Below, piece after piece: positions 16,237 to 52,043 of a DNA stretch of 64,000 nt. The position numbers were made by a program, and so were the translations under genes. The notes beneath the pieces were generated by a model. That model was given only the letters and a program-made list of their open reading frames with translations, was not told where the DNA came from and made no database searches. Each line of letters opens with the position of its first letter. Position 1 is the first letter of the stretch. Source of the DNA: an uncultured bacterium (GTDB taxonomy: Bacteria > Bacillota_I > Bacilli_A > RF39 > UBA660); contig CASEYV010000001.1 in the NCBI GenBank assembly GCA_949292245.1, forward strand, positions 116,433-180,432, written 5' to 3'.

Positions 16237-16265
16237 ATTATATTTAATTTAAAAATATTTGTCAA
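16237..16265 (-). promoter_or_regulatory. Consensus sigma70 promoter for DNA ligase
   Basis: On the minus strand TTGACA (16260-16265), 17 bases, TATAAT (16237-16242): both hexamers and the spacer match the consensus exactly. It overlaps the 3' end of the 16262-17386 gene. This is the best sigma70-type promoter in the window. Confidence 0.85.
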
Positions 16266-17386
16266 GAATATAATTTATCTAATTGACCTAATACATTTTT
16301 AGATGCTTCCGCCCATGTATTTGAATAATGATTATCATTTTTTATATATTTAGAATACATATTTTTTTCATTATCATATAAATTATTTTCAAAATATCTT
16401 AATTCTAAATCTGTTAAATTAATATTATTTGTAAATTTCCATTTATTATGTAAAATTGGCATATATTTTTTTATTATACTATATATAAATTTTGTATAAT
16501 TTAAAAATTCATCTATAAAAGCATTATTATAATGATTTAACGCAGATACCGCATAGGATTTATTGTTAAAATTATAATTTATGATATCCATTATATTATC
16601 TAAACATATTTTAGCATTAATTAAATCAAATTTATCGATTAATTGTTGAAAACATAATGAATAGAACATTAATTTAAAATAATTATTACTATTATATTTA
16701 AAATTTTTATTAATTAAGCATTTTTTAATAAAATCATTAGTTTCAACATATTCTAAACAAAATTGACCTATAAATTCATAAAATAATAAAAACATTTGTT
16801 CTCTTTTAGAATACATCATATGTTTAAATGCTTCTAAATTTGAAAATTCTATAATTTCATTAAATATTTTAGCTTCATATTCAAAAAAATCTTTGACCAA
16901 ATGGAAATTCTTTTCTTTTTCAGTATATTCAATAATTTTTTCATAAATTAATTTAGAATAATACATACAATGTAAAAATTCGGAATATTTTTCTTTTTCT
17001 GGTAAAACATTGTTTCTATATAATCTTAAAAATTTCATATTTCTGGCATTGAAGTCTTTTGTTAAGGACATATTACCATCTTCCATTTCACATAACCAAT
17101 ATAATTTGGTTTCCATATCCATTTTATCAAAATCTTTTTCAAATTCACTCAAATCATCACTAAAAGATAATTTTAATTCTAAATGATATTCTTCAGGAGT
17201 ATTTTTATATATATAATTTTGTAATTCTTTAATTATTTCATTACTATTTTCATAGTTATATATGATTTTTAAAAAATCAATGTCATTTTCTCCAAATATT
17301 TGCTTTGTAGCTTTTTCAGCCATAATTTTATAGTTTTCATCATCTTTAATTACATTATATATTCTTTCTGGCAAATAAAGTAACAT
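16262..17386 (-). CDS. Unknown protein closing the radical SAM operon
   Basis: A 374-residue, mainly helical protein rich in Tyr, Phe, Asn and Lys, with no transmembrane segment or recognised motif. The start codon overlaps the stop of the upstream radical SAM gene (TAATG) with AGGAG in the upstream coding region, so the two are translationally coupled. Weak repeated helices (for example EFLHCMYYSKLIYEKIIEY and YFKLMFYSLCFQQLIDKF) hint at a helical-repeat scaffold. From position it may be a partner, carrier or immunity-like factor for the maturation system, but nothing in the sequence proves this. Confidence 0.5.
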   Translation of the reverse strand: MLLYLPERIYNVIKDDENYKIMAEKATKQIFGENDIDFLKIIYNYENSNEIIKELQNYIYKNTPEEYHLELKLSFSDDLSEFEKDFDKMDMETKLYWLCEMEDGNMSLTKDFNARNMKFLRLYRNNVLPEKEKYSEFLHCMYYSKLIYEKIIEYTEKEKNFHLVKDFFEYEAKIFNEIIEFSNLEAFKHMMYSKREQMFLLFYEFIGQFCLEYVETNDFIKKCLINKNFKYNSNNYFKLMFYSLCFQQLIDKFDLINAKICLDNIMDIINYNFNNKSYAVSALNHYNNAFIDEFLNYTKFIYSIIKKYMPILHNKWKFTNNINLTDLELRYFENNLYDNEKNMYSKYIKNDNHYSNTWAEASKNVLGQLDKLYS

Positions 17387-18564
17387 TAATTTTCTCCTAA
17401 ATTAAAATAATCATACATATCTATATTTATGTGTGTATTATAACAGTAATCTATATTACCAATGATATTATTAATAATACGATTTAATAATTGAGATTTA
17501 TATTCTTCTGAAATATTATTAAATATTTCATCATATGTTGCTTTTAACTCCTTCATTTGATTACATAATACATAATTCACGGAATTATAATCATTTCTAT
17601 TCTTTTTTCTTTCAAATAAGCAACCACCATTACAAAAACCTTTTAAATCACAGTGCTTACAATCATTATTATTAAAAACATTATTCTCGATATCTTGAAT
17701 ATTTTCAGATACTCCCTCTTGTAATACTCCATTTTTCATTAATAAAAATTCATTATTATGATGTGATATTGAACAAGGTGAAATATCACCATCTATTGTT
17801 AAAAATAATTCAGAGCCGATTCCACAACCAGCATTTTCACGAAAAAAATAATTATTTAATTCTTTAATAAAAGCAGATGGATAATATTTGTTGTTTTCAT
17901 CTAATATATTATTAATAACTTGCTTATATTTTTCTTTAAAACTAAAATTATTAGTAGGTGTTTTATTCCAACACCAAGAATATATAAATCCATAATTTTT
18001 ATATATATTTTGTAATAAAAGCAAATCATCTAATGATTTTTCAGAAGCTATAACTGTATGAAAACATATATTTTTTCTATAATTTGATAATTCTTCCAAA
18101 TTTATATGCTCCAACACTTTAAATGGTTTATTATTAATTAAAACTCTTTCTTCCGAATAATTATCAAAAGATATAACAGTTTCATATAAAGGATATTTTT
18201 TAATTAATTCAATATGCTTATTATAATTAACACTCATTGATGTAATAACAGCTATATGTATTCCTTTATTACATAATTCATCATAATATTTTTCTAATAT
18301 CTTTTCTATTAAATCAATTTTTAATAATGGTTCTCCACCAAAAAATGTTATCAATTTAATATATTTTGTTTTTAATATACCTTCTTCAAACAAATAATAT
18401 AAATTTTCAATATCAAAATCTCTACTTTTACTGTAATTAACATAACAATATTTGCATCTCAAAGGACAATTATACGTTAAATTAATAAAAATTTCCGGTT
18501 TTTTATATCCATATTGTGATTTTTTTAAAAATCGACATATTGCTTTAATTTTTTCTGAAATCAT
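17386..18564 (-). CDS. Radical SAM/SPASM protein (maturase 4 of the operon)
   Basis: A 392-residue radical SAM enzyme. The [4Fe-4S] motif CPLRCKYC uses C33, C37 and C40, with the SAM-binding GGEP at 76-79. A C-terminal SPASM domain has cysteines at 247, 264, 302, 305, 311, 315 and 334 (CGIGS, DISPC, CKHC, CNGGC), enough to hold auxiliary clusters. SPASM enzymes typically modify peptides or proteins, for example sactipeptide thioether formation or sulfatase maturation. It overlaps both neighbours by one base (TAATG). The likely substrate in context is the Cys-tailed protein at 21377-22981. Confidence 0.88.
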   Translation of the reverse strand: MISEKIKAICRFLKKSQYGYKKPEIFINLTYNCPLRCKYCYVNYSKSRDFDIENLYYLFEEGILKTKYIKLITFFGGEPLLKIDLIEKILEKYYDELCNKGIHIAVITSMSVNYNKHIELIKKYPLYETVISFDNYSEERVLINNKPFKVLEHINLEELSNYRKNICFHTVIASEKSLDDLLLLQNIYKNYGFIYSWCWNKTPTNNFSFKEKYKQVINNILDENNKYYPSAFIKELNNYFFRENAGCGIGSELFLTIDGDISPCSISHHNNEFLLMKNGVLQEGVSENIQDIENNVFNNNDCKHCDLKGFCNGGCLFERKKNRNDYNSVNYVLCNQMKELKATYDEIFNNISEEYKSQLLNRIINNIIGNIDYCYNTHINIDMYDYFNLGEN

Positions 18565-19694
18565 TATAATCTTTCTTGGTTATTTGTTTTTATACCATTA
18601 TCATAATCTATTTTCCACATATTATAATTATATATTATATTATATAATTTTTCCATTTGTTCTTTCGACAATGATTTTAAAAAAATGTCTGTTTCTTCAT
18701 ATATTGAGGAATATATATTACAAGTATGAGAACAAATATTACACTGCCAATCATTTTTAAAATTCATTATTCTTTCATAACGGCAACCACCATCACAAAT
18801 AGATTTAAATTTACAATCTTTTTGACAATTTGATTTATATCTTAAATCTGTAATTATTTCTGTATCAACAAATGTATTTAAATTTCCTAATTTAAATCGT
18901 TCATCTTGCTGTGATAATATGGTGCAAGGATATATATCCCCATTTGGCTTAATAACAACATGTGTTCCAATATCACATGATATAACTGGTTGATTTTGAA
19001 TAACATTTGTAATAGTTTTCATTAAAAATCTAGGTATAAAAATAGTTTCATTAAATAAATCATTCTTAATATCATTATATACTTTATTTAATTGTTCTTT
19101 TAAATTTATATGATAATCATCTTTAAATGATAATTGATGAGCTATTGTAAAATCTCCACCAAATTTATATTTGTTATGCAAATCTTTAAATATTTTATAT
19201 GTATCGTAAAATGATTTAACCGAGATTTCATTTAAAACACATCTGCCTTCAAATATTCTTCCTTTTTTTAATTCATCAATTAAAGATTCATAAACTATAT
19301 TATTTGATATATTACCATTTGCCATTTTTCTTGTTGTATCATTACCGTCCCAAGACACTTGAATATCAAAATTAGTTCTATTTGGTTCATAAACTTCTTC
19401 CATAAATTTATGAAAATTAACAGTTCCATTTGTAACAACTTGAAATTGGAAATATTCTTTATAATTTTCAACTATTTTTTTAATTAAATCTATTTTTACT
19501 AATGGTTCACCACCAAAAAATATTAACCTTGGTTTATTAGAACAAGTAAACATATTTTTTATTTTTTCTACCCATTCATATGGAAATTCATTCATTATAT
19601 GTCTATTTTTTATATAGCAATATTCACATCTTAACGGACAAAATTCTGTAACCATTAAATAAGCATGATTTATAATAGGCGGTAATTTTACCAT
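18564..19694 (-). CDS. Radical SAM/SPASM protein (maturase 3 of the operon)
   Basis: A 376-residue radical SAM protein with CPLRCEYC (C19, C23, C26), FFGGEPL at 59-65, and a SPASM region beginning CDIGTHVVIKPNGDIYPC followed by CQKDCKFKSICDGGC and CNICSHTC. It resembles the 17386 gene in length and layout (an old duplication is likely) but differs in most residues outside motifs. The start overlaps the end of the intein-bearing maturase gene by 7 bases. Role inferred: post-translational peptide modification under anaerobic conditions. Confidence 0.88.
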   Translation of the reverse strand: MVKLPPIINHAYLMVTEFCPLRCEYCYIKNRHIMNEFPYEWVEKIKNMFTCSNKPRLIFFGGEPLVKIDLIKKIVENYKEYFQFQVVTNGTVNFHKFMEEVYEPNRTNFDIQVSWDGNDTTRKMANGNISNNIVYESLIDELKKGRIFEGRCVLNEISVKSFYDTYKIFKDLHNKYKFGGDFTIAHQLSFKDDYHINLKEQLNKVYNDIKNDLFNETIFIPRFLMKTITNVIQNQPVISCDIGTHVVIKPNGDIYPCTILSQQDERFKLGNLNTFVDTEIITDLRYKSNCQKDCKFKSICDGGCRYERIMNFKNDWQCNICSHTCNIYSSIYEETDIFLKSLSKEQMEKLYNIIYNYNMWKIDYDNGIKTNNQERL

Positions 19695-21361
19695 TTTCTA
19701 ACTCCGTTGTAAGCAGGTGAATTAATACCTGTTTCTGTATGAAAAACAGCATTTTCTTCTAAATGAAGATTATCAAACATTTTAGAACCACGCATATATT
19801 CATCTTTTGGTATATACAATGAATCGTGTTTAAACAATGAACTTATTTGTGAAGCATATTCATCATATATTTGAGTTTCAATAGGTAATATTGAACATAA
19901 ATTACAAAATCTTTTTGATAAACTTTTATTATGAACTAAATTAGAAGCTGGACATTCTGTGCATTGTAAATTACCACATTTTCTATGATTACATAAAGGC
20001 AAAACTAAAAATTCTTTTTCAAATTGTTTTAATTTTTCTTCGTTTATTCCGTCTGTTAAAGAACCAACTTTAAATGTTTTATGGTCACCAAAATATATAC
20101 AAGGATATATATCGCCATTTATATCTATATGATAATTATTTCCTAATTTTGAACATAAAAAGAAATTTTTAGGCATTTTTCTTTTTGTATATATTAATTG
20201 CCAATTATAATAATATAATTCTTCACCTTTATTTGAATATTCCAAATACAATTTAGCTATTTCGGTTAATTGTTTTCTAAATTCATCTGCAAATTCTACA
20301 CCGTGATAATTAGCTTCATGAATAAAGTAATATCCAAAATTAAAAACATTATTTTCTAAACAAAATTTATAACTTTCCGCCAAATCTGGTAATGTCATAG
20401 GTGTTATAGCTGGTGTAACACATATATCATGATTGTATTTTGTAGTGCCTAATTTTTTAATAACATTTTTAAAAAATTCATCGTCATATTTTCCTTTTGT
20501 TAATCTGGATTTTGAAGCACTATATATACCATCCCAAGAAATAGCCGTTTTATGAGGACATATTATTTTTCTATCACACCAATCATAAACAACATCCATA
20601 TTTGTGCCGTTAGTTACAACACATAATTCAAATTTAACATCTCTAATTCTTTCAACTTTTTTAAAAACTTTAGCAACATTCATAAAACAATCTGGACGTA
20701 ATGTTATTTCACCACCAGTTATCGTAACATCAACTCTATCTTCAAAAGGTAATATCATTAAAAGTTTTTCCAGATTTTCAAAATCTTGAAATTCTTGTGC
20801 ATGATATTTATATTCACCTAATTGATGACAATTATGAACCAAAATATTATTTGCAATATATGTATGTTCAGTTGTTTCAATATTATATACATAGTCATTA
20901 AAATCAATTTCTTCAATTAATTCAACATTATCTATATTAATAGGAGAATAATTTTCAAAATTATTAGTTATATTAAATTTAGGTAATTTAACAGATTTTA
21001 TTTTCTTTTCTTTTTTCTTAATTAATTTTTCAGCTGTTGTCCATTGATTTCTTCCATCTAAAATTGGATGTTCACCTGTAATTAATAATTTATTACCTAA
21101 TTTAGTATTAATTTGATATAATTTTTCAACATATCTTGGATTAAAGACATGTGTAACTTTAGCTGTTTTTAACTTTCTTTGTTTATTTTTTTCAGAAATT
21201 TCATTGAATGCAACAATTTCATCACCAATTTTAATATCTTTAATTGGTTTAACTGTTAAATCACTCATTGTTATCTGTGTGTCACCAGATACACAATAAC
21301 AACAATGTAAATTACATCCAGAATAGGCTTTTATTGATAATTTATTAATAGTTTCAAACAT
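19688..21361 (-). CDS. Radical SAM/SPASM protein interrupted by a mini-intein (maturase 2)
   Basis: The precursor is 557 residues, with a 155-residue intein at residues 23-177. Splicing gives a 402-residue radical SAM protein. Before the intein are C16, C20 and Y22; the intein supplies its own Cys1 at 23, and the +1 extein Cys178 follows. Only the spliced product has CNLHCCYC, the intact CxxxCxxC cluster motif. Downstream are TITGGEITLRPD and a SPASM-like region (DINGDIYPC, CNHRKCGNLQCTECP, CNLC). The unspliced form also has a CxxxCxxC (using the intein Cys1) but followed by intein sequence. The gene starts 15 bases after the stop of the Cys-tailed protein gene. Confidence 0.88.
   Translation of the reverse strand: MFETINKLSIKAYSGCNLHCCYCVSGDTQITMSDLTVKPIKDIKIGDEIVAFNEISEKNKQRKLKTAKVTHVFNPRYVEKLYQINTKLGNKLLITGEHPILDGRNQWTTAEKLIKKKEKKIKSVKLPKFNITNNFENYSPINIDNVELIEEIDFNDYVYNIETTEHTYIANNILVHNCHQLGEYKYHAQEFQDFENLEKLLMILPFEDRVDVTITGGEITLRPDCFMNVAKVFKKVERIRDVKFELCVVTNGTNMDVVYDWCDRKIICPHKTAISWDGIYSASKSRLTKGKYDDEFFKNVIKKLGTTKYNHDICVTPAITPMTLPDLAESYKFCLENNVFNFGYYFIHEANYHGVEFADEFRKQLTEIAKLYLEYSNKGEELYYYNWQLIYTKRKMPKNFFLCSKLGNNYHIDINGDIYPCIYFGDHKTFKVGSLTDGINEEKLKQFEKEFLVLPLCNHRKCGNLQCTECPASNLVHNKSLSKRFCNLCSILPIETQIYDEYASQISSLFKHDSLYIPKDEYMRGSKMFDNLHLEENAVFHTETGINSPAYNGVRKW
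20831..21295 (-). other. Mini-intein (155 aa, no endonuclease) in radical SAM maturase
   Basis: Residues 23-177 of the 19688-21361 product. Block A is CVSGDTQITM, block B is ITGEHPIL, and the C-terminal blocks F/G are YVYNIETTEHTYIANN and ILVHN followed by Cys+1. Penultimate His, terminal Asn and nucleophilic Cys1 and Cys+1 are all present, so it should splice. There is no LAGLIDADG or HNH insertion; a Lys-rich linker (about residues 93-103 of the intein) marks where an endonuclease would sit. The insertion is in frame, so this is not a broken gene. Confidence 0.92.
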
Positions 21362-21376
21362 TGATATATCTTTAAA

Positions 21377-22981
21377 TTAGTGTGTTCCACATTTTTGGTC
21401 ATGACATTGTTTTGTATTACAAGCCTGACAAGATACTTGACATCTATTTTGACAAGCAACTTGGCAAGTATATATACATCTATCATTTGAATCAAACCAA
21501 CCATCTCTTAATTTTAAGCATCTGTCCATTTTATCCAATAATTGTTCTAATTGTTGATAGTCTGCTTTTTTAACAACTTCTTCATTATTTAATGAGTAAT
21601 TTCTATTTACATCAAAAGTAAATGTGTTTTTTTGATTGGCTTCAATAGAATCTGGCATATATTCATATATTGTTTCAGATGTTTTAGCTGGATTATCTAA
21701 TAATTGTTGACCATTTTGTACATCATTTGGATTTGGTTTTAATTCAGAATATTTTTTAATACCACGAGCGGATAAATTTTCAGAAGTTTCGACACCAATA
21801 TAATTAGGTTGGGTAACATTTATTTTTAAATCACCGGTTAAACCATAAAATGTAAATCCCCCTAATTCCATAGTATCACCATCTGTTCTTCTAGCTCTAG
21901 TAACGACTAAACGATAATATAAATATGGTGTATTATTATTAATATTAAATGTTCTTGTTCTATTTTGACCCCAATTATTATCTTCATTAAGATGAGTATC
22001 AATAACTGTCCATCTATTATTATCATTAGATGCTTGTATAGTCCAATCACAAGGTGTTTCCCAATCGTATCTTCTGTTATCTGCTCTCATTAAATATGAT
22101 TTTAAAATTATATAATTTCCGATATTAAATGTTATTATAACTGGATTACTTGCTGAAGGATATCTTCCAAAATCAATAACCGAAGCATCGTTTCTAAATA
22201 ATCTATATGTATTATTTCCTAATTCTCTACAATAAACATTTAATGAATTGCTATTGTTAGAATTTATATTTGTCGGACTATTATAAGGTTTATCATAAAC
22301 CATTTCTGATTCTGATTCACCTGCTAATTTTCCATCAACAGAAGATATTGTTTCATTGACATAATATCTATCACCTGTCCATTCAACTACAAATTTTTTA
22401 TATGGATTTGATTCATATGAAATTATAATGAAATTTCCAACTAAATTTGTTAAATTTTGGTCAGAATATAATTTAACTTCATCATCTTCTTTAAAAGTTT
22501 GATAAGAATCTGTCCAATAAACAGTTTCATTAACAATATCATTAGCAGTATTATATTCTCTATATAAAACTTTATATGACTTTATTCTTCTTCTTTGATA
22601 TGTCGATGTTGTCCCATATTCTGATAATTTAAAATTGGTTGCTAATTGAGTATTTAAATTTCTCATACTTCTACGAATATTATTTTCATTTCCTAAGGTA
22701 TGAATTAAATTACTTTCAACAGAAATATCTTGATTTACTTCACCTGGTAATCCAGAATATGTTTTTCTTTTAGTATCTCTTACATTTAATGGTATAGTAT
22801 CATGCATAGCAATAGCCATACCTTTCCAGCCACCAACCCAACGACCGCCCCAATCAGGACCTTTACCAGACCATACTTTCCAAACACCATTCCAATTTAA
22901 TGCTTTATTTCTAAAACTTCTTCTAATTTCATCATAGATAGAGCGTTTAATTACTTCACCAGTTGTTTCATTATAATTCAT
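21377..22981 (-). CDS. Discoidin-like virion adhesin with cysteine-rich C-terminal tail, probable maturase substrate
   Basis: A 534-residue protein. Residues 28-55 are unusually rich in Trp and Gly (NWNGVWKVW, WGGRWVGGWKG). Residues about 280-380 resemble an F5/8 type C (discoidin) carbohydrate-binding domain (CDWTIQASNDNNRWTVIDTH, then YLYYRLVV and MELGGFTFYG). A helix at 470-490 leads into a tail with Cys at 488, 502, 506, 510, 514, 518, 521, 526 and 531, ending CGTH; only two other Cys occur in the preceding 487 residues. It lies between radical SAM maturase genes and overlaps the upstream one by 11 bases. Inference: a tail-fibre or surface protein whose Cys tail is modified. Metal binding or disulfides are alternatives. 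Confidence 0.7.
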   Translation of the reverse strand: MNYNETTGEVIKRSIYDEIRRSFRNKALNWNGVWKVWSGKGPDWGGRWVGGWKGMAIAMHDTIPLNVRDTKRKTYSGLPGEVNQDISVESNLIHTLGNENNIRRSMRNLNTQLATNFKLSEYGTTSTYQRRRIKSYKVLYREYNTANDIVNETVYWTDSYQTFKEDDEVKLYSDQNLTNLVGNFIIISYESNPYKKFVVEWTGDRYYVNETISSVDGKLAGESESEMVYDKPYNSPTNINSNNSNSLNVYCRELGNNTYRLFRNDASVIDFGRYPSASNPVIITFNIGNYIILKSYLMRADNRRYDWETPCDWTIQASNDNNRWTVIDTHLNEDNNWGQNRTRTFNINNNTPYLYYRLVVTRARRTDGDTMELGGFTFYGLTGDLKINVTQPNYIGVETSENLSARGIKKYSELKPNPNDVQNGQQLLDNPAKTSETIYEYMPDSIEANQKNTFTFDVNRNYSLNNEEVVKKADYQQLEQLLDKMDRCLKLRDGWFDSNDRCIYTCQVACQNRCQVSCQACNTKQCHDQKCGTH

Positions 22982-24323
22982 TGATTTTACCTTTATCCAT
23001 ATCCATTATTTCTTTATTAATATTTACCAACTGTTGAACTACCTTTTTTAAAACTTCGTTAAAATTAGGTAATATAATATCTTCCATATCTATAATTTTT
23101 TCATAAAAAGTTAATAGACTAACTGCATATTCTTGCGTAGTTGGATTTTTAGTTAATACTTCTTCAAATAAGTAATTTAATAATGAAATATTTTGAGCCA
23201 AAATATTTAAACGATGTGAACGAATATTGGAGCAATTTAATAAATTTAATTGATGTTCATATGCTACAGTAACTATAACAATGTTAATCATACATTGTAT
23301 TTCATTCATTTTATTACCATTACCATTAACAGTTAAATTTTCAGATGGACAACCACCTTTACAGACACTTCTTGCAATACAATCATCACAATCATATGCA
23401 CCACTAATTGTTCCATTATTAAATTCTATTTCTTTAATATCGTTATCATCAAAAATATTACCCATTACTAAATCACGATATTTATATGAAATAGCATGAC
23501 GTTGATGACAAGGTAAAATATCACCATTAACTCCAATAGAACAAGATGTAAATGTTCCTGCTGAACAAACTTTTGTTTGATAATCATTAAGAGGTATCAT
23601 TAAAACATTTTCAATATAATCTTCTATAAATTTAATTGTTATATTTTTCTTATTTTCATTGTCATTATAAATATCAAATAACCAATCCCATACTATATTT
23701 AAATTTTTATATAAATTCATTAATTGTTCTGCTGACCAAAAAACATCAGTAACAGGAACAGGAGCAATATTTACAATACCCATATCAACAATAGATTTTA
23801 TTGAATTTAATAATTCATTTACATCTTCTGGTAAAATTGTCATACGAGCTTCAATTAAATAACCTAGGTGTCTATTAATTAATTTTTCAACATTTTCTTT
23901 AACTTTGTCATATGAATTACATCTATTTCTATCATGTATTTCTTTTATACCATCAATAGACACTAAAATACCCAATTCATATTCTTCAATAATATCAATC
24001 ATATGTTCGTTTAAAATTGTTAAATTGGTTGTTACACCAAACGACATATTATATTTTTTATCCGAAGCATACTTCATAGCATGTTCTATTACTTCAAAAT
24101 TAAGAAATGGTTCTCCACCAAAAAAATTAACAACAAATGGAAATTTACCGTCATTTGTTAAAAGATAATTCTCATAACATTTATCGAGTATTTTTTCAAC
24201 ATTTTCAATACTCATTTTTAAATCATTTTTATTATTTTCAAAACAATAAGGACATCTTAAATTACAATTATTAGTTATATTTAATGTGACATCTCTTAAT
24301 TTAAAGTATTCATTAAATTTCAT
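22971..24323 (-). CDS. Radical SAM/SPASM protein (maturase 1, first gene of the operon)
   Basis: A 450-residue enzyme with CNLRCPYC (C20, C24, C27), VNFFGGEPFLNF near 65-76, and LVSIDGIKEIHDRNR, typical of anSME/SPASM-type proteins. A SPASM region follows: CSAGTFTSCSIGVNGDILPC, then CDDCIARSVCKGGC. A 110-residue C-terminal helical extension follows the SPASM domain. AAAGG-type ribosome binding site. Its stop region overlaps the Cys-tailed protein gene, so maturase and candidate substrate are translationally coupled. Confidence 0.88.
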   Translation of the reverse strand: MKFNEYFKLRDVTLNITNNCNLRCPYCFENNKNDLKMSIENVEKILDKCYENYLLTNDGKFPFVVNFFGGEPFLNFEVIEHAMKYASDKKYNMSFGVTTNLTILNEHMIDIIEEYELGILVSIDGIKEIHDRNRCNSYDKVKENVEKLINRHLGYLIEARMTILPEDVNELLNSIKSIVDMGIVNIAPVPVTDVFWSAEQLMNLYKNLNIVWDWLFDIYNDNENKKNITIKFIEDYIENVLMIPLNDYQTKVCSAGTFTSCSIGVNGDILPCHQRHAISYKYRDLVMGNIFDDNDIKEIEFNNGTISGAYDCDDCIARSVCKGGCPSENLTVNGNGNKMNEIQCMINIVIVTVAYEHQLNLLNCSNIRSHRLNILAQNISLLNYLFEEVLTKNPTTQEYAVSLLTFYEKIIDMEDIILPNFNEVLKKVVQQLVNINKEIMDMDKGKINEL

Positions 24324-43344: not shown

Positions 43345-44421
43345 ATGAAAGTTAAATTACCACAAGGAACAGGTGCAATTAAAAAATCTAAGCCATATAG
43401 ATTGATGACTGATAATCAAAAAATGGTTTATAATATGGTTTATGACTCGGTAAATGGACCTTTATTTTTTGCTGAAAATTGCTGTTATGTTAATAGAAAC
43501 GGATTACAAAATTATGTTCCGTTTGATTATCAACGAGAAATGTTATTTAATATGCACAATTATAGCAACTTAATAAGTTTATTTTCAAGACAAAACGGAA
43601 AAACTATTACATCAGCGATATACATATTATGGTTTGCAATGAAATATTCATTAAAGGAAATATTAATTTGTGCTCAATCAAAAGATGCAGCGATGGAAAA
43701 CTTATCAAAAATCAAACTTACATATGAATATTGTCCTGATTTTCTAAAAAAAGGTTTGGTTTCTGATAATAAATCTACACTTATATTTGATAATGGTTCA
43801 AGAATTATTGTAAGACCTTCAACGATTAAAGCTCCTCGTGGTCTTTCACCAGCTATTGTATATGTTGATGAGTTTGCTTTTATTGGACAACAAAAATCTT
43901 CTGATAATGCTTTGGAAATGCAAGAAGAATTTTATGGAGCATTATCTCCAACTTTATCAGCTTCAAAAGGTAAATTGTTTATTACATCTACACCAATATC
44001 AGAAACAGATTTATTTTATCGTTTGTGGAGTGGTGCTATTAAAAAAGTTGATGACCATGGTATGGATATATTACCTGATTATATTTTAAAAATAAATGGT
44101 GAATTATATAGAGATTTTCATTTATTTAAAACAAAAAGAGAAGCTGAAAAATATGCCAAAACTATTAGAACTGACACTAATAAAGTTGAAGTTGTAGAAA
44201 AATCTCCTAGCGGAAATAATAGTTTTCAATCTCAATTAGTTAAATGGGATGCTTGCCCGTTAAAAGATGAAGAATGGGCAAAAGCCGAATTAAAACGTGT
44301 TGGTGCTGAAAAATTTGCCAAAGAGTATAATTGCTTAAGTGGTGATAATGTTGTATCTCTTATGGACGAACAAGGAAATATAATCAAAACTAAATTGGAA
44401 TTATTATATAATTTTTATTAA
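43345..44421 (+). CDS. 17: Large terminase, N-terminal half (ATPase) fused to split-intein N fragment
   Basis: A 358-residue protein. Residues 1-329 form the packaging ATPase: Walker A SRQNGKTI (81-88), Walker B IVYVDEFAF (171-179, Asp-Glu 175-176) and the coupling motif FITSTPIS. Residues 330-358 begin with the intein block CLSGDNVVSL and end at a natural stop. The last extein residues KFAKEYN continue as CEFIGQSNS, which is found at the start of the C-half extein at 51261. Trans-splicing would give a 589-residue terminase, close to T4 gp17 (610). Without splicing there is no nuclease domain. Confidence 0.93.
   Translation: MKVKLPQGTGAIKKSKPYRLMTDNQKMVYNMVYDSVNGPLFFAENCCYVNRNGLQNYVPFDYQREMLFNMHNYSNLISLFSRQNGKTITSAIYILWFAMKYSLKEILICAQSKDAAMENLSKIKLTYEYCPDFLKKGLVSDNKSTLIFDNGSRIIVRPSTIKAPRGLSPAIVYVDEFAFIGQQKSSDNALEMQEEFYGALSPTLSASKGKLFITSTPISETDLFYRLWSGAIKKVDDHGMDILPDYILKINGELYRDFHLFKTKREAEKYAKTIRTDTNKVEVVEKSPSGNNSFQSQLVKWDACPLKDEEWAKAELKRVGAEKFAKEYNCLSGDNVVSLMDEQGNIIKTKLELLYNFY
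44332..44418 (+). other. Split intein N fragment (29 aa) in terminase
   Basis: Residues 330-358, starting at Cys with CLSGDNV and ending KLELLYNFY before the stop. It contains only block A. Most split inteins have an N part of about 90-120 residues; this short type matches the atypically split class known from metagenomic terminase inteins (AceL-TerL type). Confidence 0.9.
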
Positions 44422-50951: not shown

Positions 50952-51260
50952 ATGTATAAAATTTTAACTAATAATGGTTGGAAAAAATTCGATGGTATTA
51001 AAAAAATCGATAATCAAGAAGTTATAAAATTAACTCTTGAAAATGATAATTTTATTGAATGCACAAATGACCATAAAATTTATATAAATTGCTTTGAATA
51101 TGTTGAAGCTAAAACATTAAAAATAGGTGATTATGTTTATACTGATGATGGGTTAATAACCATAAAAAATATTGAAAATGTTGGTATAAAAGATGTATAT
51201 GATATTTTAAATGTTGAGGATGGTAATAAATTTTTTGCTAATGATATTTTAGTTCATAAT
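50952..51260 (+). other. Split intein C fragment (103 aa) in terminase
   Basis: Starts at its own Met (MYKILTNNGWKKF) and ends ILVHN before Cys+1 at 51261-51263. Blocks B, F and G are all in this fragment, complementing the 29-residue N fragment. Together they total 132 residues, a minimal intein without an endonuclease. Confidence 0.92.
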
Positions 51261-52043
51261 TGTGAGTTTATCGGTCAATCTAATTCATTGGTTGATTCTA
51301 ATGTTATTAGAAATATGTTATTAGAGTTAGAATCGGTTACATATAAATTTTTAGTTGATAATGATATAAAATTTTATGATGATTTGAAGCCTTATAAAAA
51401 ATATATTGTTACAATAGATACTTCTATGGGATTGGAAGAAGACTATTCTGCAATTCAAGTTTTTGAATTTCCTGGATTTATACAAATAGCAGAATGGCAA
51501 GCCGATAAATTAAATCAAAATTTACAAGTTGAAAAAATGAAAAACTTGACAGATTGGATGTATTCTGATATTAAAAGTAAAGGTAATTTACATCCAGAAA
51601 TTTATTGGTCATTGGAAAACAATGGTTCTGGTGAAGGTTTTATATGTGCTTTACGAGAAAAAGGTGGAACAGAATATATTAAAAGAGCTAATTTGATTAC
51701 AGAAACAGGTAATAAAAGAATTGGTTTTACAACAACATCAAGGACTAAACCAATGGCTTGCTCACAATTAAAAATATTATTAGAATCTAATCGTATGAAA
51801 ATAAATTCTCGTAATTATGCTATTCAATTATCAAATTTTTCGGCTGATTCAGCTATGTCATATTCAGCAAAAGGTGAATCACACGATGACTTGATAACAT
51901 CATCTTTAATAATGATAATGGTTTATTTACAAGAAAAAAATAGATTAGATTTAAATATGGAAATAATGAATTATAATAATATAAGGGCTCAATTAAAACC
52001 AGAAAATATTGAAGATTCTCCAATTATTTTTTCTATAAATTAA
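50952..52043 (+). CDS. 17: Split-intein C fragment fused to large terminase C-terminal (nuclease) half
   Basis: A 363-residue protein. Residues 1-103 are the intein C fragment (FIECTNDHKIYI block B region; DVYDILNVEDGNKFFANDIL and VHN at the end). Residues 104-363 are the terminase nuclease domain, starting CEFIGQSNS, with metal-site motifs VTIDTSMGLEEDYSA, YWSLENNGSGEGF and SHDDLITSSL, as in T4 gp17. It has no ATPase motifs, so it must join the 43345-44421 product to package DNA. AAAAGG precedes the ATG. It lies at the end of a different transcription unit from the N half. Confidence 0.93.
   Translation: MYKILTNNGWKKFDGIKKIDNQEVIKLTLENDNFIECTNDHKIYINCFEYVEAKTLKIGDYVYTDDGLITIKNIENVGIKDVYDILNVEDGNKFFANDILVHNCEFIGQSNSLVDSNVIRNMLLELESVTYKFLVDNDIKFYDDLKPYKKYIVTIDTSMGLEEDYSAIQVFEFPGFIQIAEWQADKLNQNLQVEKMKNLTDWMYSDIKSKGNLHPEIYWSLENNGSGEGFICALREKGGTEYIKRANLITETGNKRIGFTTTSRTKPMACSQLKILLESNRMKINSRNYAIQLSNFSADSAMSYSAKGESHDDLITSSLIMIMVYLQEKNRLDLNMEIMNYNNIRAQLKPENIEDSPIIFSIN

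Follow-up and report, generated by a model that had tools for sequence, protein, structure and literature searches.

Radical S-adenosylmethionine (SAM) enzymes with a SPASM domain that are close to PapB, ScfB and QhpD link the sulfur of a Cys to carbons of side chains (PMC9413430, PMC8326336). The thioethers formed by PapB are of the Cys-Asp/Glu type (PMC9413430), and QhpD introduces such bonds into a full-size functional protein, the quinohemoprotein amine dehydrogenase gamma subunit, and not in a released peptide (PMC8326336). In phages, the 11-12 radical SAM genes of the Campylobacter myophages CP220 and CPt10 were interpreted as metabolic and no substrate was proposed for them (PMC2853527). 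In the open-access literature we did not find phage virion proteins described as substrates of radical SAM maturation, subscription papers and preprints being outside the scope of the search. Here we describe an operon in a 64,000-nucleotide stretch of phage DNA (the window) which encodes four predicted maturases (A to D), a virion-like protein with a Cys-rich C-terminal tail (S) and a helical protein (E). From its comparison with other phages we consider it likely that the SPASM enzymes put sulfur-to-carbon cross-links into the Cys tails of phage structural proteins, and that the operon is a virion-protein maturation cassette. What would be new is the kind of substrate and the biological setting; the enzyme class is already known.

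The window covers positions 116433-180432 of a 283,511-bp contig (G000:C1, 25% GC) that was binned with a small bacterial genome. Since it carries genes for a tail sheath, a baseplate wedge, a sheath stabiliser, a head-tail adaptor, a large terminase, a DNA polymerase and an anaerobic NrdD, the contig is that of a jumbo myophage. All six coupled open reading frames (ORFs) reported in an earlier note on this DNA were found at its coordinates. They are transcribed from right to left in the order A-S-B-C-D-E and overlap their neighbours by 1-11 nt, except for a 15-nt gap between S and B. Features are listed below in window positions (L numbers label the compared loci).

22971..24323, minus strand: maturase A, radical SAM/SPASM, first gene of the operon, 450 aa (PF04055, NF047865; orthologues beside tail proteins)
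21377..22981, minus strand: S, virion-like protein, predicted substrate, 534 aa (phrog_17517; N-terminal ~190 residues and Cys tail common to L042 and L043)
21752..22594, minus strand: variable middle module of S, ~residues 130-410 (alignment; mostly absent from the 274-aa relative in L042)
21389..21520, minus strand: Cys tail of S, residues 488-531, conserved core 502-532 (Cys positions; column conservation in seven full tails)
19688..21361, minus strand: maturase B, radical SAM/SPASM, 557 aa before and 402 aa after predicted splicing (PF04055, PF13186, PF14890)
20831..21295, minus strand: predicted intein in B, residues 23-177, 155 aa (PF14890, TIGR01445, TIGR01443, junctions)
18564..19694, minus strand: maturase C, radical SAM/SPASM, 376 aa (PF04055, PF13186; relatives in L043, L044, L126 and L139)
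17386..18564, minus strand: maturase D, radical SAM/SPASM, 392 aa, paralogue of C with 27% identity (PF04055, TIGR04085; orthologue in L139)
16262..17386, minus strand: E, conserved partner predicted to be all-helical, 374 aa, no family match (profile matches; AlphaFold2 model)

Domain models confirmed A-D as predicted radical SAM/SPASM peptide maturases, with the CxxxCxxC motif of PF04055 and C-terminal SPASM Cys. PF04055 exceeded its cut-off in all four proteins (E = 3.1e-16 for A) and a SPASM model (PF13186 or TIGR04085) did so in B, C and D. The earlier note had called all four SPASM proteins; for A, PF13186 stayed just below its cut-off (20.3 versus 21.5 bits), and the C-terminal Cys set of this enzyme is 253/272/312/315/321/325/344.

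The operon shares with PapB/PapA a radical SAM enzyme with a SPASM domain and a Cys-rich substrate of four-residue periodicity, but it has several maturases, and its substrate is large and virion-like with the predicted modified part at the C-terminus instead of a leader-core peptide. NF047865 (PapB family) was the best NCBIfam model for all four maturases and none reached its cut-off of 340 bits (A, 200 bits, E = 5.6e-59, full-length; C, 89.8; B, 72.5; D, 58.1); the S tail is devoid of CX3D/E motifs. The periodicity of SCIFF peptides, the partners of ScfB/CteB, is strikingly similar (CQxxCQxxCxxxC). SCIFF is nevertheless a short clostridial peptide without virion context and with a conserved acceptor Thr, while S proteins have 199-534 aa in intact cases and are variable at the corresponding position 523 (T, T, F, H, Y, G and T in seven tails). 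The SCIFF maturase model TIGR03974 matched A over its full length with 122.6 bits (E = 1.9e-35; cut-off 425). The sactipeptide, SCIFF and PapB labels are not borne out by the model cut-offs and substrate motifs. QhpD (TIGR03906, E = 7.7e-36 with A, nearly full-length) resembles the present case in its full-size substrate; it differs in acting on a bacterial enzyme subunit, in its Asp/Glu acceptors and in being a single maturase. Finally, the CXXX-repeat system TIGR04114/TIGR04115 also has a Cys at every fourth residue beside a SPASM maturase. TIGR04115 gave 90.3 bits with A (cut-off 350), and TIGR04114 (cut-off 20 bits) had no match in S at E 0.01. At the phage-like locus L040, TIGR04115 came close to its cut-off (300.6 of 350 bits) and TIGR04114 exceeded it (21.3 of 20 bits). 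These NCBIfam models already catalogue Cys-repeat/maturase pairs and cover part of the wider class described below.

Sulfatase maturation was considered as a role for A-D and rejected: TIGR03942 was far below its cut-off and no sulfatase was seen among the operon genes or their neighbours.

The Cys tail is conserved together with the operon in divergent phages

The Cys residues of S are at positions 251, 311, 488, 502, 506, 510, 514, 518, 521, 526 and 531, exactly as first listed. Nine of the eleven fall within the last 47 residues (hypergeometric P = 7e-9). Besides S, only one of the contig's 269 ORFs of at least 100 aa has six or more Cys among its 50 C-terminal residues, and it encodes a radical SAM protein of a second cluster. 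Maturases aside, S alone among the ORFs of the 283.5-kb contig contains a run of at least six closely spaced Cys. In the middle module, residues 276-380 match the phage tail protein family phrog_17517 (E = 1.8e-12), better than the discoidin-like domain that had been proposed (PF00754, E = 0.028, below the cut-off). A tblastn search of cultured phages with S gave no match. S is most likely a modular structural protein, associated with the tail or a fibre, in which an N-terminal module is followed by a variable middle rich in beta structure, then by a short predicted helix and finally by a Cys tail of 30 residues.

Viral contigs were scanned with an alignment of three maturases, which yielded 79 loci; scans of these contigs with S alone or A alone as single query gave no match. 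Most of the fecal "Bacteriophage sp." matches to A that were opened proved to be bacterial SCIFF loci including the SCIFF peptide, and were set aside as probable host DNA. A search based on S only, with the patterns HTLGNEN and CN[TF][KS]QCH, recovered loci with maturase A directly upstream, and L139 was located through the tail, not through a maturase.

Orthologues of A lie beside tail proteins in L042 (59% identity), L043 (53%), L126 (40%), L141 (40%), L139 (36%) and L044 (34%); those of C were found in L043 (63%) and in L044, L126 and L139 (34-39%). The order A-S-B-C-E recurs, with rearrangement in part and mostly at 28-63% identity, in three of these loci. L043 reads A, S (382 aa), B (42%), C, E (28%). 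L044 reads A, a first S (521 aa), a weakly E-like protein of 393 aa, a second S (203 aa), C (34%), an E-like protein and B (30%). L126 reads A, S (327 aa), a 290-aa protein, C, B and an E-like protein. In L139 the exact window order A-S-B-C-D-E is observed, with an S of 199 aa and a D of 36% identity. The relative of S in L042 (274 aa) keeps the N-terminal module and the tail and misses the middle, and the S proteins of L044, L126 and L139 have little in common beyond the tail. While the length and the middle modules of S vary, the tail columns are nearly invariant. The spacing C-3-C-3-C-3-C-3-C-2-C-4-C-4-C is constant in 7/7 full-length tails, and C502, C506, Q507, C510, Q511, C514, C518, Q519, C521, H527, Q529 and G532 are identical in all seven. 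The window and the divergent phages thus have in common the CQ pairs and the CHxQxCG end. C526 and C531 are also kept, except in the first S of L044, which has Ala and Ser there and retains the HNQ residues and remaining Cys. No Asp or Glu occurs at the +4 position of any tail Cys; the conserved neighbours are Gln, Ser/Thr and His.

The earlier note had regarded operons that keep all maturases and lack the tail as evidence against its proposal. All intact operons among the compared loci have a Cys tail; the sole truncated tail, that of L141, is accompanied by maturase A only. Together, these results show that the tail is a module which is conserved together with the operon across divergent phages. 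They strongly support, at the level of comparative genomics, the central proposal of the earlier note, in which the maturases would modify the Cys-rich end of a structural protein of the phage.

L141 (4050-6293) encodes a 747-aa S homologue whose tail is truncated (SCQINCQTSVQKS, stop) and represents a natural partial system.

Protein E is not a maturase and is predicted to be all-helical (AlphaFold2 mean predicted local distance difference test score, pLDDT, 83.9). Its relatives were identified by profile immediately downstream of the maturases in L043, L044, L126 and L139 (with a three-sequence profile, E = 3.5e-16 in L126 and 1.4e-8 in L139), indicating that E belongs to the conserved gene set of the operon. 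Foldseek returned no significant match for the model (best E 0.16). The VIA list consisted of TPR-like solenoids with a best Z of 10.5, which is not decisive; because such scores are in the range common for helical models, no family is claimed.

Cys-run genes beside SPASM genes in other phages

In order to evaluate this pairing more widely, we surveyed IMG/VR loci chosen by maturase similarity (66 distinct loci after removal of near-duplicates, standard genetic code only), a Cys-run ORF being defined by at least six Cys spaced 1-4. A Cys-run ORF on the same strand and within 3 kb of a maturase was present in 46/66 viral loci. Cys-run density fell from 0.213 per kb inside 1 kb to 0.005 per kb at distances above 3 kb, and the antisense strand gave only five examples. 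Under the same test 7/80 bacterial SPASM loci were positive (Fisher p = 6e-15 against the viral set), of which at least two coincide with loci in the viral records; another alignment (A2) had been used to draw the bacterial set, and IMG/VR contigs can include host DNA. The viral ranking was by similarity to the window A, and 2/3 of the seed maturases were already known to lie near Cys tails. The distance bins and the bacterial loci served as controls because an NrdD-based control scan gave one locus. The neighbourhood search suggested by the earlier note thus returned Cys-rich proteins beside SPASM genes in dozens of phages, with one clear tail-fibre protein among them. These data show that the association of SPASM enzymes with Cys-rich proteins is general in phages. 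According to the residue that follows the Cys, two chemotypes can be distinguished, with mostly Gln/Glu in one group (as in the window) and Ser/Thr/Gly in the other; both are present on the L126 contig.

Several of these loci are linked to virion proteins. The Cys protein of L077 is a tail-fibre protein (phrog_2631, E = 2.7e-32), and its Cys run is C-terminal and adjoins a stretch matching the unannotated family phrog_6085. For the S proteins of L044 and L141, the matching families are those of minor tail or tail-fibre-assembly proteins. Tail-fibre or baseplate proteins are among the large neighbours at 4/10 sampled loci, and a fifth locus has a minor head protein match. Small Cys-rich ORFs that lack annotation, two or three per phage, lie just upstream of a pair of radical SAM genes and downstream of a virion structural gene in phiEaH2 and SPN3US, both cultured jumbo phages, in regions where the GenBank ORFs are in the wrong frame or missing:

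L223 3097-3489, 3500-3904, 3920-4126: SPN3US, unannotated tandem Cys-rich ORFs beside two radical SAM genes
L122 5087-6131: phiEaH2, unannotated tandem Cys-rich ORFs beside two radical SAM genes

Because the gene numbers of the SPN3US papers and RefSeq seem not to correspond, the papers gave nothing usable for gp99-gp103. The published SPN3US virion search considered 273 annotated proteins with fixed Cys carbamidomethylation (PMC10052503).

Other Cys-repeat loci were noted in passing. Proteins that match the Hoc-like head-decoration family and have Cys runs occur beside SPASM maturases in L067 (9080-10750) and L084 (9163-10686), and the same loci are also present in Peptoniphilus and Ezakiella genomes (L157, L158). 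In the crAss-like phage Phass-1, which is TAG-recoded (code 15), the gene after two radical SAM genes encodes a protein of 174 aa whose C-terminal tail is rich in Cys (L036 6932-9668); this protein is invisible under the standard code. In CP220 (L121 11158-12762) a published in-gene 21-bp repeat encodes a CNCNYCTC-type repeat, and one of the radical SAM genes lies 2 kb downstream of it; L098 and L055 have similar CxC repeats near SPASM genes.

Proposed maturation of the tail and competing explanations

In the proposed mechanism, A, helped by B, C and D, would bind and oxidise the tail, and with every turnover one Cys sulfur would become bonded to a carbon in the side chain of a residue nearby. 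A would start, and B, C and D would extend or diversify the cross-links along the tail. That L042 keeps A and S alone suggests A as the core enzyme. The Gln residues at +1 and +5 from the CxxxC cysteines are the most conserved acceptor candidates and the likeliest in this chemotype. E is probably a helical scaffold or chaperone which would bring S to the enzymes. As a result, a protein of a phage infecting anaerobes would acquire a rigid end that resists reduction and proteases. We infer the cross-link chemistry, the acceptors, the role of E and the location in the virion.

Several observations weigh against this scheme. The evidence is that of genome comparison throughout. The acceptors of the PapB and SCIFF types (Asp/Glu of CX3D/E and the SCIFF Thr, respectively) are not conserved in the S tail. 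In L042, B, C and E are missing from the vicinity of A and S, and on the 59-kb contig of L141 maturase A is the only one, beside a truncated tail. The window operon adjoins DNA ligase and ThyX genes and has no tail genes beside it. Finally, the AlphaFold2 model of S (pLDDT 33) is unusable for its fold, and S was therefore left out of the fold search.

The maturases could also modify the tail of proteins that are not part of the virion, S and its analogues being RiPP-like effectors (RiPP, ribosomally synthesized and post-translationally modified peptide) released or injected against competitors or the host. Sactipeptides and ranthipeptides are mostly small and secreted, several Cys-repeat proteins of other phages are small (128-200 aa) without a known structural domain, and the window operon is not adjacent to tail genes. 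However, neither the window operon nor the compared operons contained a recognisable gene for an exporter, a protease or immunity, the S proteins (199-747 aa) carry tail-type modules in several phages, and the L077 run belongs to a tail-fibre protein, with tail and baseplate neighbours at sampled loci. We find this explanation doubtful.

It is still less probable, in our opinion, that the Cys tail binds a metal (Zn or Fe-S) or forms disulfides, the radical SAM enzymes acting elsewhere or only loading or protecting it. The regular CxxxC/CxxC spacing and the conserved His of CHxQxC do resemble a metal site, and radical SAM enzymes are common in phages of anaerobes, such as the Campylobacter phages with their 11-12 genes (PMC2853527). 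But the tail is beside SPASM enzymes in every case in which the flank is present, the Ala and Ser in place of C526 and C531 in L044 are unexpected for an obligate tetrathiolate site, and the runs of up to 92 Cys in other phages are unlike metal sites. Non-cross-linking changes (C-methylation, epimerisation, Cys oxidation or desulfurisation) are very improbable: SPASM and twitch enzymes have many chemistries and four different maturases suggest more than one reaction, but A is closest to the thioether-forming group (PapB, SCIFF, QhpD) and the substrate is defined by its Cys.

Extending the cross-linking proposal beyond the window, we lean slightly towards the view that phages of many lineages use SPASM maturases to introduce cross-links into the Cys repeats of their own tail proteins, fibres or other virion components, with two or more chemotypes (C-[Q/E]xx and C-[S/T/G]xx), which would be a previously unrecognised chemistry of virion maturation. 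If so, phage particles would contain enzymatic cross-links of the thioether or a related type, chemistry otherwise familiar from peptide natural products and from one cofactor enzyme, and these links would have been missed by standard proteomics with fixed Cys alkylation. This would explain the puzzling radical SAM gene clusters in jumbo phages and phages of anaerobes, give a function to unannotated Cys-repeat ORFs of cultured phages such as SPN3US, and provide a source of new peptide cross-linking enzymes. The proposal is directly testable in a laboratory phage.

The intein of maturase B and a second radical SAM cluster

Maturase B contains an intein (PF14890, 44.8 bits versus a cut-off of 35.8, E = 1.5e-11; TIGR01445 and TIGR01443 also match) located between CNLHCCY and CHQLGEY, with junctions at C23 and VHN/C178. 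A domain above cut-off, an N-terminal Cys, a C-terminal His-Asn and a +1 Cys predict that it is splicing-competent. In unspliced B the third Cys of CxxxCxxC is the first residue of the intein itself, the genuine one being Cys178; splicing would restore the cluster ligands Cys16, Cys20 and Cys178. Since this +1 extein Cys is a cluster ligand, B should be inactive until spliced and its activity should depend on splicing. Spliced B is 42% identical to the intein-free orthologue of L043, which reads GCNMNCSYC. NF038136 (intein-containing Rv2578c family radical SAM) matches B over the radical SAM motif and the intein start (E = 2.7e-15) and gives a precedent for inteins in radical SAM proteins; it differs in being another radical SAM family, non-phage and without SPASM tail maturation. 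Long maturase spans in L046, L048, L066 and other loci were considered as inteins and turned out to be tandem maturase genes.

The large terminase of the contig also appears to be split by an intein, its halves being at window positions 43345-44421 and 50952-52043. The N-terminal half ends with an intein start (EYNC/LSGDNVVSL) and the C-terminal half begins with an intein end (ILVHN/CEFIGQ); genes for the tail sheath, a methylase and other proteins lie between them. The two halves are possibly joined by trans-splicing.

The same contig carries a second cluster (L021, G000:C1:4391-13862) of seven radical SAM genes, one MiaB-like, one SPASM and five of an unnamed subfamily. It directly follows tail-fibre-like genes and two small proteins of 237 aa (with a poly-Ser run near the C-terminus) and 190 aa, and is perhaps a second maturation cassette with a Ser-type substrate.

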